From a virus, in the IMG/VR virus record IMGVR_UViG_3300021474_000030, positions 1 through 24,511 of that record: DNA of 24,511 nt. One strand, given 5' to 3'. The number at the start of each line of letters is the position of its first letter. Positions within the stretch are counted from its first letter, which is position 1. Positions 18,692 to 23,598 of this stretch are shown one piece after another. The position numbers and the translations under genes were made by a program. The notes under the pieces were generated by a model. It was not told the origin of the DNA and did no database searches. It saw only the letters and a program-made list of their open reading frames with translations.

Positions 18692-18735
18692 AAAAAAAAA
18701 CCGACTGCTTAGTTACCTACGACTAAACAATCGGT
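18692..18735 (-). terminator. Rho-independent terminator after the tRNA cluster
   Basis: ACCGA(CTG)/(CAA)TCGGT and an inner TTAGT/ACTAA arm pair to a stem of about 13 bp with small mismatches (18700-18735). On the minus strand nine T follow directly. It lies between the last tRNA and terminase and would end the right-hand transcript. Confidence 0.82.
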
Positions 18736-18764
18736 CACCTCAAAGAGGATTATTATGCAAGAGA

Positions 18765-18835
18765 TGCTCTTTGAAGGAATCGAACCCCCACACTCTGAGT
18801 ACAAAACAGAAGGTCTACCATTAACCTAAAAGAGC
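18765..18835 (-). tRNA. tRNA-Thr (UGU)
   Basis: A full cloverleaf of 71 bases. The acceptor arms GCTCTTT/AAAGAGC pair completely. D-arm GGTT..AATGGTAG..ACC. Anticodon stem TCTG/CAGA with a tolerated T-T pair at 31-39, loop TTTGTAC with T33, anticodon TGT and A37. T-arm GGGGG TTCGATT CCTTC. Discriminator A73; G1-C72 and C2-G71 agree with Thr identity. CCA is not encoded. Confidence 0.88.
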
Positions 18836-18838
18836 ATT

Positions 18839-18909
18839 TGGAGACGGCAGGAATCGAACCTACACTTCAGCCTTGCAAAGACCACTAGCTACCATTACAA
18901 CACATCCCC
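18839..18909 (-). tRNA. tRNA-Ala (UGC)
   Basis: A cloverleaf of 71 bases. Acceptor GGGGATG/CGTCTCC includes G3-U70, the key alanine identity pair, and the discriminator is A73. Anticodon loop TTTGCAA gives TGC; the alternative reading GCA (Cys) breaks the anticodon stem and lacks the U73 expected for Cys. The anticodon stem has several G-U pairs and the D-stem one mismatch. T-arm GTAGG TTCGATT CCTGC. Three bases separate it from the Thr tRNA. Confidence 0.85.
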
Positions 18910-18913
18910 ATAA

Positions 18914-19018
18914 TGAAGAAGGAGGGACTTGAACCCCCGACACCGCATGAAAACACTACCAGGCCCCGGAAACCAGAACCAGTGCTCATCGCCCCTCTAC
19001 CAACTGAGTTACTTCTTC
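18914..19018 (-). tRNA. 105-base tRNA-like gene with hairpin in place of a normal anticodon arm
   Basis: Perfect acceptor arms (GAAGAAG/CTTCTTC), position 8-9 TA, a standard D-arm (CTC AGTTGGTA GAG) and a standard T-arm (GGGGG TTCAAGT CCCTC) with A73. Between D- and T-arms are about 59 bases instead of the usual 27. They contain an 8-bp hairpin GGTTCTGG-TTT-CCGGGGCC with only a three-base loop, extended by CACT/AGTG and ATGA/TCAT. I found no 5-bp stem with a seven-base T33 loop, so no anticodon can be assigned. Removing the 31-base CACT...AGTG element leaves 74 bases, a normal tRNA length, but still no canonical anticodon arm. It may be an interrupted tRNA, a decayed tRNA or a tRNA mimic. Confidence 0.6.
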
Positions 19019-19020
19019 GT

Positions 19021-19066
19021 AAAAAATCCCACGTATTTAACGACTTTTAGTGGGGGACCTGTCGTT
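19021..19066 (-). other. Pseudoknot-capable element with U-run between tRNA genes
   Basis: Two inverted repeats interleave: 19028-19032 pairs with 19050-19054 (CCCAC/GTGGG), and 19039-19044 pairs with 19061-19066 (AACGAC/GTCGTT). This is the topology of an H-type pseudoknot. On the minus-strand transcript the second stem is followed by ATTTTTT, so the simpler CCCAC/GTGGG hairpin could act as a weak terminator in competition with the other stem. Confidence 0.45.
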
Positions 19067-19120
19067 GGACTTACCTTGGATTCCATCTATGGCTAGACAG
19101 ACCAATTCTTGTGCCAAAAG

Positions 19121-19194
19121 GGCCGGATGCAGGAATCGAACCTACGCATAGCTCCCGGGTGAGGGGTGCTGCTTTCCCACTTAGCTAATCCAGC
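19121..19194 (-). tRNA. tRNA-Val (CAC)-like, atypical
   Basis: A cloverleaf of 74 bases. Acceptor GCTGGAT/ATCCGGC (one T-G pair), D-arm GCT..GTGGGA..AGC and T-arm GTAGG TTCGATT CCTGC are normal. The anticodon arm AGCACCC / GGGAGCT has an A-A mismatch around loop CTCACCC, giving T33 and anticodon CAC. Position 37 is C instead of a purine and the discriminator is C73, rare outside tRNA-His, so isotype and function are doubtful. Its 5' acceptor bases also encode the last codons and stop of the secreted protein gene upstream. Confidence 0.6.
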
Positions 19195-21197: not shown

Positions 21198-21369
21198 ATT
21201 CAAACCCCTTCATCACTTGTGAATGTTTTGTCCAATTAATTTCCTCACCGTCCTTGGCCCTCCAAACACGGTATTTCAGTATCGGCTTAAAGATCTTGTG
21301 ATCCGGCAGCCGCTCCCACTCATCGTCCAGAAAAATATAATTAGGCATGTACTTACTTTTCCAAATCAT
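21043..21369 (-). CDS. Hypothetical protein with long same-strand overlap into the co-chaperonin
   Basis: A 108-residue ORF. The first about 57 residues (YIFLDDEWERLPDHKIFKP; YRVWRAKDGEEINWTKH) look like a normal small protein. The rest lies in another frame of the co-chaperonin gene for 155 bases and reads Gly/Ala/Arg-rich, as a shadow would. The ATG overlaps the RNA ligase stop (ATGA), which supports real translation from here. Either the C-terminal tail is genuine overlap coding or the original stop was lost. Family not recognised. Confidence 0.5.
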   Translation of the reverse strand: MIWKSKYMPNYIFLDDEWERLPDHKIFKPILKYRVWRAKDGEEINWTKHSQVMKGFEYGDAAYWSRFGGANQAAREKRNALAAADGRRADESAGQGSGGEGRGADQGG

Positions 21370-22340
21370 CGCTCATACCCTAAATTTATCACCTTGAAAC
21401 TTATAGGCTTATTTCCAAAGTTTTCCTGCGAACGAACCACTACACCTTCTCTTTCCTTTCCATTAACATATTTTCCTTCACCTAGCAATTCAATTCCTTC
21501 TCTGCTAAATGATCTTCCAATCTTAAAGACTCTGCATACAGGTATCTCCAAATCGATGCATAGACCAACAAATTCCATCATCGTTAAATATCTTTGTTCA
21601 ACAATATTATATGCACTAAATGCCAAACCATCGATATCCTTGAAACCCATCGGATTGCCTTGTATCTTAGGTCCACATGTCTCCCATTGCAGAGCGATAC
21701 CTTCCGGAAGCTTCTCCTCTAATCCGTATTTTATCGCCACCTTCCAGTATCCATTCTTTTCATTCTTTTCAATTTCATAATTCCTGCTGCAAACTCCGAA
21801 TATGCCTTTATACCTGTATGCGGTTGAACTTGACCCATCGGCTTTCTCAGTAATATAGTACGGATTTCCTACCAACTGATCTACCAATTCGGGATATTTT
21901 TGATAATTCAACTCATCTGTCTTCGGGATAAAACTAGGAAAATCGCCCTTTGCCACACCCAAAAGATTGATAGGTATAGGTTTATGATACTTTGTTACGA
22001 ACCTTTCACCAGTAAGATCATAGCCAATAGGGTAGTTATTATATTTCCAGAGAATGGGCATAATAACCACTTCACTAGGCGCACCACGGAACCTACGCAT
22101 CTTAACACGCCAGCCGCTCGCCTTCATGAATCCCATGCGTACGTCATCCTCCGGCACCAATGCATCAGGCAAAAAAACCTCACACAAATCACCCAAAGAA
22201 TATTCTGACTTACGAACTATACCTCGCCATTTACCCCCCTGGCCGCAGACCACCGTAGCACTGACAATCTGGTCTGCCTCCGGTATTTGATCTAAAGAAA
22301 TAATCTTGCCTACATATACTAAACCATTGCTCTTTTCCAT
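21366..22340 (-). CDS. RNA ligase, DRB0094/Rnl5 type
   Basis: A 324-residue ATP-dependent ligase that seals 3'-OH to 5'-phosphate RNA ends. The nucleotidyl-transferase motifs are present: motif I K166-A-D-G (TEKADGSSS), motif Ia SRNYE at 185-189, Glu220 with GPKIQGNPMG (motif III-IIIa), REGVVVRS near 298 (motif IV) and SFKVINLGY with Lys316 (motif V). The N-terminal 120 residues form a separate beta-rich domain, as in the Deinococcus DraRnl group (Rnl5), where an OB-fold precedes the catalytic part. The gene is joined to the 28-residue ORF by TAATG. It is a different mechanism from the RtcB ligase next to it, and the two together suggest an RNA-repair block. Confidence 0.9.
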   Translation of the reverse strand: MEKSNGLVYVGKIISLDQIPEADQIVSATVVCGQGGKWRGIVRKSEYSLGDLCEVFLPDALVPEDDVRMGFMKASGWRVKMRRFRGAPSEVVIMPILWKYNNYPIGYDLTGERFVTKYHKPIPINLLGVAKGDFPSFIPKTDELNYQKYPELVDQLVGNPYYITEKADGSSSTAYRYKGIFGVCSRNYEIEKNEKNGYWKVAIKYGLEEKLPEGIALQWETCGPKIQGNPMGFKDIDGLAFSAYNIVEQRYLTMMEFVGLCIDLEIPVCRVFKIGRSFSREGIELLGEGKYVNGKEREGVVVRSQENFGNKPISFKVINLGYER

Positions 22341-22434: not shown

Positions 22435-23598
22435 CTAATCTTTATATGGATCAAATTCTCTTCCGTCTGCCATGCAAACCCCTATAGGCCGCAATGTATG
22501 TAATATCTTTATTGTATCTTTATGGTATTCCAGTATTTTTTCAATGCGCTTATAGGCCAGAGGTGATTCGTCGAGATCGCCCCCACGCACTTCGACTCCC
22601 ATCTTTTTAATGTATTCCTCGTGTGCATCCTGTAAGACCAATCCCTCTCGTATGACATTCCCCCGACGATCTCTTTTGCCTTTCGCTTGCATTCTTCCCA
22701 TCGCACGGCCTGCTCCATGTACTGTAGAGTATAGCAATTTTTGTGATTGGGCGGATTCGACGCCTTCCAAGATAACTGAAATATCTCCCATAGAGCCTCC
22801 GACAAATCCTTTCTGACCTGGGAAAGCTGGTGTAGCTCCTTTTCTGACAACCCATAAGTCTCGATCAAAATGCCGCTCTTTCCAGGCAAAATTATGGTGG
22901 TTATGTACTTCTTCGACGACATTTCCACGTAATATCTTTGCAACCCTCGAACAAACCCAGTCTCTTCCCGCATAAGCATATCTACCAGCGAGTTCCATGC
23001 ACTTAAGATATTGCTGTCCAAGGTCGCTAGCCTCATCAAAAATAACCGGCGCCGCGTGCACTCCATCCTTCCCCCCACCCTTCTCTATAAAATATTTGCA
23101 AATACTATGGCCAAAACCCCTGCTCCCAAAATGAACCCCAACCCAAACGCGATTAAGCTCGTCCAGAAAAATATCCACATAATGGTTTCCACTTCCAACC
23201 GTACCAAGCTGATCCATAGCTTTCTGTTTGAGTCCTCCAAGGAGTGGTATATCGCCAAATAATGGGTCAGCAAATACATCTGAATCCACCTTTTCATCGT
23301 TCTTTCTCCCCACTCCGAAGCTTATATGTTTCCTTACTTCGTTCATTGTTCGGTATATGCCTTTCTTGACTTCCTCGGCATCACAGTCCAGTCGCACTGC
23401 CTTGTTTCCGCATGCAATATCAAACCCCACACCATTGACACAAATGCCCCCATCAAAGGCTACCACACCCCCAACAGGGACACTATAACCCAGATGATGG
23501 TCTGCCATTAATGCGCAGTGCACCGGGCCATACTTCGCTATTTCTTCCATCTGCTTCACTGCGTCCTCTTCCGGCTCGCCCATCACGTGAATTTGCAT
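22435..23598 (-). CDS. rtcB: RtcB-type RNA ligase
   Basis: A 387-residue GTP- and manganese-dependent ligase that joins 2',3'-cyclic or 3'-phosphate ends to 5'-OH ends, as made by tRNA-cutting nucleases. The family motifs are all present: MADHHLGYSVPVG, then GFDIACG with Asp60 and Cys63 as metal ligands, GSGNH with Asn138 and His139, HFGSRGFG with His156, VHNHHNFAW around 231, VVRKGATPAFPGQ at 250, and STVHGAGRAMGR with His294, the residue guanylated in the family. Length is close to E. coli RtcB (408). AGGA lies nine bases before the ATG. Archease, which helps some RtcB enzymes, was not seen. Confidence 0.95.
   Translation of the reverse strand: MQIHVMGEPEEDAVKQMEEIAKYGPVHCALMADHHLGYSVPVGGVVAFDGGICVNGVGFDIACGNKAVRLDCDAEEVKKGIYRTMNEVRKHISFGVGRKNDEKVDSDVFADPLFGDIPLLGGLKQKAMDQLGTVGSGNHYVDIFLDELNRVWVGVHFGSRGFGHSICKYFIEKGGGKDGVHAAPVIFDEASDLGQQYLKCMELAGRYAYAGRDWVCSRVAKILRGNVVEEVHNHHNFAWKERHFDRDLWVVRKGATPAFPGQKGFVGGSMGDISVILEGVESAQSQKLLYSTVHGAGRAMGRMQAKGKRDRRGNVIREGLVLQDAHEEYIKKMGVEVRGGDLDESPLAYKRIEKILEYHKDTIKILHTLRPIGVCMADGREFDPYKD

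Follow-up and report, generated by a model that had tools for sequence, protein, structure and literature searches.

A conserved phage RNA that joins the elbow and acceptor end of a tRNA to a bulged arm in place of the anticodon arm

In bacterial Y RNAs, a long stem that binds protein is attached to a domain resembling tRNA, with acceptor, D and T arms (PMC8394870). Some bacteria have rsr, a Y RNA and rtcBA in a single operon, and it has been suggested that the Y RNA YrlA inhibits an anticodon nuclease by competition (PMC7790460). Phages counter tRNA-cleaving defences with tRNAs of their own (PMC10264068, PMC11555353). Clusters of phage tRNA genes are usually read as a means of codon supply or tRNA replacement, and a tRNA body without an anticodon would serve neither. 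Here we describe such a body in a 24,511-nt IMG/VR virus fragment (IMGVR_UViG_3300021474_000030, hereinafter the window), which carries genes for a portal, a major head protein and a terminase. The element is 105 nt long, occupies positions 19018 to 18914 of the minus strand, and is located between the genes for tRNA-Val(CAC) (19120–19194, minus strand), its upstream neighbour, and tRNA-Ala(TGC) (18838–18910, minus strand), which lies downstream. Comparison with its homologues shows a conserved RNA with the elbow and acceptor end of a tRNA and a structured arm unable to read codons. Judged from sequence, the element is very probably a phage-encoded, non-decoding mimic of tRNA.

Architecture of the 105-nt RNA

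All features of the element lie on the minus strand. The 5' strand of the acceptor stem (GAAGAAG, 19012–19018) pairs at all seven positions with the 3' strand (CTTCTTC, 18915–18921), followed by the discriminator A at 18914; CCA is not encoded. The D arm is ACTCAGTTGGTAGAGG (18994–19009), and the T arm is GGGGG-TTCAAGT-CCCTC (18922–18938), as supported by comparison with the homologues. The initial annotation had described these three arms around an over-long centre, and this description holds. Specifically, the RNA shares with a canonical tRNA the elbow nucleotides, the D and T arms and an acceptor stem of 7 bp, but it lacks the five-pair anticodon stem with a seven-base loop containing U33.

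The tRNA family model RF00005 matches the element with 39.6 bits (gathering threshold 29; E 6.1e-7) if the search is confined to the 531-bp cluster, while a scan of the whole window with default filters missed it. The alignment leaves out 48 central nucleotides, which correspond to the anticodon arm. ARAGORN called tRNA-Val(CAC), tRNA-Ala(TGC) and, further downstream, tRNA-Thr(TGT) (18763–18836, minus strand) in the window and passed over the 105-nt element, and it made no call among the mimic elements that were given to it. Genes of this kind are thus skipped by a tRNA finder.

The place of the anticodon arm is taken by a long bulged arm (18945–18992; RNA positions 27–74). The central hairpin noticed earlier, GGTTCTGG-TTT-CCGGGGCC, is present, but it is merely the tip of this arm. 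From base to tip, the arm consists of GC pairs, a bulged G29 (18990), a basal helix formed by AYGAG and UUCRU, a UU bulge, a helix of variable sequence (helix H) and a CUGG bulge, and it ends in a tip that varies. In the window, the AYGAG strand lies at 18985–18989, and the UU bulge with UUCRU lies at 18947–18953. Helix H is formed by CACUG (18980–18984) and UAGUG (18954–18958), the CUGG bulge is on the 3' side (18959–18962), and the apical hairpin is GUUCUGG-UUU-CCGGGGC (18963–18979).

Conservation among related phages

The terminase of the window retrieved many uncultured phages, mostly of about 40 kb, and several of these phages carry homologous elements in the same tRNA neighbourhood. An RNA model built from eight sequences detected full-length elements in 13 contigs at 72.8–116 bits, and L090, L093 and L219 came from pattern scanning of IMG/VR; L219 scores 86.1 bits with the RNA model. 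The final alignment contains ten distinct sequences of 100–128 nt, all from uncultured phage contigs; most of the relatives are metagenome fragments whose records may be incomplete. An RNA-ligase query for further relatives yielded only the near-identical contig. Four pattern matches were obtained from 84,980 bacterial and archaeal species in GTDB, none with tRNA arms, and these were judged to be chance matches. In the phage and plasmid collections no homologue was found, the matches being short or ordinary tRNA-like sequences.

All ten sequences have the tRNA elbow nucleotides U8, A14, G15, C48, G18, G19, U54, U55, C56 and A58 without exception. The acceptor stem differs in sequence among seven lineages and nevertheless forms in every case (49/49 pairs), with double changes; even the near-identical elements of L022 and L090 differ by two compensated pairs there. 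In the arm, the frame 5'-G-N-GAYGAG...UUUUCRUGC-3' is nearly fixed, while the sequence between its halves is free. In L005 a U-A pair of the basal helix is replaced by C-G, and the bulge reads CUGG, within CUGGU, in six of eight lineages. Helix H is 4–8 bp long and variable in sequence, and its strands covary. Its first four pairs form in 31 of 32 cases, compared with a mean of 18.8 when the partners are permuted; 4 of 40,320 permutations equal the real pairing, a figure that is a guide rather than a strict probability because the sequences share ancestry. Constrained folding of nine sequences gave one common arm architecture. The compensatory changes that the initial annotation proposed to look for in relatives are therefore present, in both the acceptor stem and helix H.

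The compensated acceptor stem and the maintained pairing of helix H argue against decay and against chance. A decayed tRNA gene, or a group of them, had been considered at first, and a sequence with a chance resemblance to tRNA would likewise fit the silence of ARAGORN and the free-energy z-score of just −1.47. However, ten distinct homologues retain the elbow, the acceptor pairing and the arm structure with compensatory changes, and an origin by decay or chance, contradicted by this covariation, is extremely improbable.

Nor does the RNA appear to decode. The acceptor, D and T arms and the elbow are intact and the gene is located among ordinary tRNA genes, as would be expected of a working tRNA that still decodes through an aberrant anticodon arm. 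The tip loops, however, vary in size and sequence (UUU, GUAAAA, AGAUUU, CUAU and others), and a conserved triplet or U33 is found in none of them. Because both the sequence and the length of the tip vary, no anticodon is kept, and a decoding tRNA is highly unlikely.

Comparison with interrupted tRNAs, Y RNAs and T4 rnaC

Extra sequence in the anticodon arm is also a property of archaeal and eukaryotic pre-tRNAs, whose introns are removed by EndA and whose halves are joined by RtcB. By analogy, the hairpin could be an intron cut by an endonuclease, with the halves joined by a phage RtcB or RNA ligase. The window encodes an RtcB (22435–23598, minus strand; PF01139, E 2e-67) and an ATP-dependent RNA ligase (21366–22340, minus strand; PF09414, E 2.5e-20), 3–5 kb from the element. 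Other tRNA-like genes with long anticodon arms exist in related phages, and UUUUCR looks like the loop around a UUC anticodon, U33 and R37 included. We enumerated every single excision over the seven lineages, and none gives a U33/R37 loop on a five-pair stem in all of them. With U33 and R37 in place, the best excision forms 19 of 35 anticodon-stem pairs, and its variable loop then has three bases. The arm is also not a bulge-helix-bulge, in which bulges on opposite strands flank a 4-bp helix, because both of its larger bulges, UU and CUGG, are on the 3' strand; helix H between them is 4–8 bp long. Unlike intron-containing pre-tRNAs, the window RNA thus offers neither a bulge-helix-bulge nor a canonical spliced product.

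The tRNA-splicing endonuclease of EndA type (PF01974) is absent from 32 phage records. The window and its closest relatives encode RtcB, but it was undetected in the element carriers G018, G030 and G359 and in the fragment G003; counted by locus, it was undetected in the records of L022 (38.5 kb), L093 (42 kb) and L219 (20 kb). By the same count, it is a broken fragment in the record of L019. G016 (C1:3848-4135, locus L224), a phage that retains the tRNA-mimic element, has only a broken copy, with 57% identity and one internal stop. These records may be incomplete; RtcB is part of the context and apparently not needed by all carriers. The RNA ligase occurs in 18 of 30 phages of the group, with the element or without it, and is therefore not specific to it. 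Because no excision works in all lineages, the arm is not a bulge-helix-bulge, no splicing endonuclease is found in the phage records and RtcB is undetected in some carriers, the interrupted tRNA proposed at first is quite unlikely.

The overall plan of the window RNA is instead built like that of Y RNAs. In YrlA (RF02553), which is about 90–150 nt long, acceptor, D and T arms form a tRNA-like body, a long bulged stem occupies the position of the anticodon and, in some bacteria, RNA-repair genes lie in the neighbourhood. A phage-borne Y RNA would bind the host Ro60 (Rsr) with its bulged stem and tether it via the tRNA-like body. The protein-binding stem and rsr–rtcBA operons introduced above fit such a role, as does GGCGA, which opens the bulged stem in both RNAs. 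As a comparison set, we used true Y RNAs located beside Ro60 genes in one bacterial phylum, which reach at most 79.4 bits with RF02553. When aligned, they reveal a tRNA body that is circularly permuted, in the order T arm, closed acceptor hairpin and D arm, with the anticodon position extending into the long Ro60-binding stem in which the RNA ends; PMC8394870 reports this anatomy as well. In contrast, the window RNA is unpermuted: its acceptor stem, of 7 bp, is open, and its long arm is closed. RF02553 gave no match to the element region at E ≤ 10. The Ro60-binding helix formed by the RNA ends (GGCGAAUGC/UUGUCGCC) and the Ro motif GGCGAAUGCCU/UUGUCGCC are both absent from the window RNA, and the Ro60 gene (PF05731) is absent from all 29 phage records searched for it. 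The window RNA thus appears to share the Y RNA plan in unpermuted form and without the Ro60 site; it is not identified as a Y RNA, and a phage-borne Y RNA is an unlikely explanation.

T4 rnaC (species 1 RNA; L223:1409-1547) is a stable RNA of another phage tRNA cluster and may itself be a tRNA mimic. It is 139 nt long, and its fold (z-score −4.57) has a canonical T arm and, at the place of the anticodon arm, a long hairpin with bulges. Other than that, it differs from the window RNA: a D arm is not evident, there is an extra long variable hairpin, the AYGAG/UUUUCRUGC motif is missing, and the element RNA model R1 gives just 12.4 bits. It may be distantly analogous to the window RNA. The phage tRNAs thought to oppose host attack on tRNA (PMC10264068, PMC11555353) also belong to tRNA clusters, but they decode, and their anticodon loops are normal or point-mutated.

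Taken as a whole, the observations are best explained, with modest confidence, by a non-decoding mimic whose most likely role would be that of a decoy or scaffold. The suggestion of a deliberate mimic is supported as far as the nature of the RNA is concerned, namely a conserved tRNA body free of decoding. As the codon-reading arm is replaced by a bulged hairpin, the RNA probably binds tRNA-handling proteins. A role as decoy or scaffold for such proteins is a tentative proposal; it is our leading guess because these phages often carry RNA-repair ligases and because phage tRNAs counter tRNA-cleaving defences. In this proposal, the RNA would be cotranscribed with the tRNAs beside it, matured by the enzymes that trim tRNAs, and would adopt an L shape whose elbow and acceptor end are those of a normal tRNA. 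A protein would probably bind at the conserved bulged base of the arm stem, with the tRNA body as a second contact. The RNA could thereby occupy or tether a host target, such as an anticodon nuclease, a tRNA-cleaving defence protein or an RNA-decay enzyme.

Several observations weigh against such a mimic. A decoy should perhaps retain an anticodon loop, and the window RNA has none. The minimum-free-energy fold without constraints is not a cloverleaf (−36.9 kcal/mol compared with −35.9 kcal/mol for the cloverleaf), so that support for the cloverleaf comes from homology to tRNA and from comparison, and not from energy alone. The carriers in which RtcB was undetected, and G016 with only its broken copy, also count on this side.

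The RNA could possibly represent a new family of phage regulatory RNAs, in which an intact tRNA elbow and acceptor end are joined to a conserved bulged, putatively protein-binding stem and act in anti-defence, as decoy or scaffold for host proteins that attack tRNA. It suggests that phages, like bacteria with their Y RNAs, exploit the shape of tRNA to offer a binding surface, and it may help to explain phage RNAs described earlier, such as T4 rnaC, that have lacked an explanation.

Other features of the cluster and of related phages

The tRNA cluster of the window is followed on its 3' side by a hairpin that resembles an intrinsic terminator (18699–18736, minus strand) by consensus match. Between tRNA genes lies a spacer (19022–19119, minus strand), about 97 nt long, that is conserved at L004:5278-5376 and L036:5228-5324. 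A search of Rfam with this spacer gave no match at E ≤ 10. It resembles an H-type pseudoknot, with AACGAC/GUCGUU interleaved with CCCAC/GUGGG and followed by a T run, and CCCAC/GTGGG is changed to CCCAG/CTGGG in relatives.

Related phages contain further unusual tRNA-like genes. Long anticodon arms of different sequence are present at L034:5425-5520, L147:5180-5284 (identical to L184:6412-6516) and L004:5037-5158, and such long-arm tRNA mimics may therefore be common in this phage group. The gene at L178:113-222 has an ordinary-looking anticodon arm, but its variable arm is giant, with about 13 pairs, and that at L185:9326-9457 is a 132-nt class II tRNA-like gene whose fold is not a simple cloverleaf. 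In addition, ARAGORN assigned two-base or four-base anticodons to L018:1453-1523, L027:5590-5661, L135:14027-14110 and L167:7898-7970.
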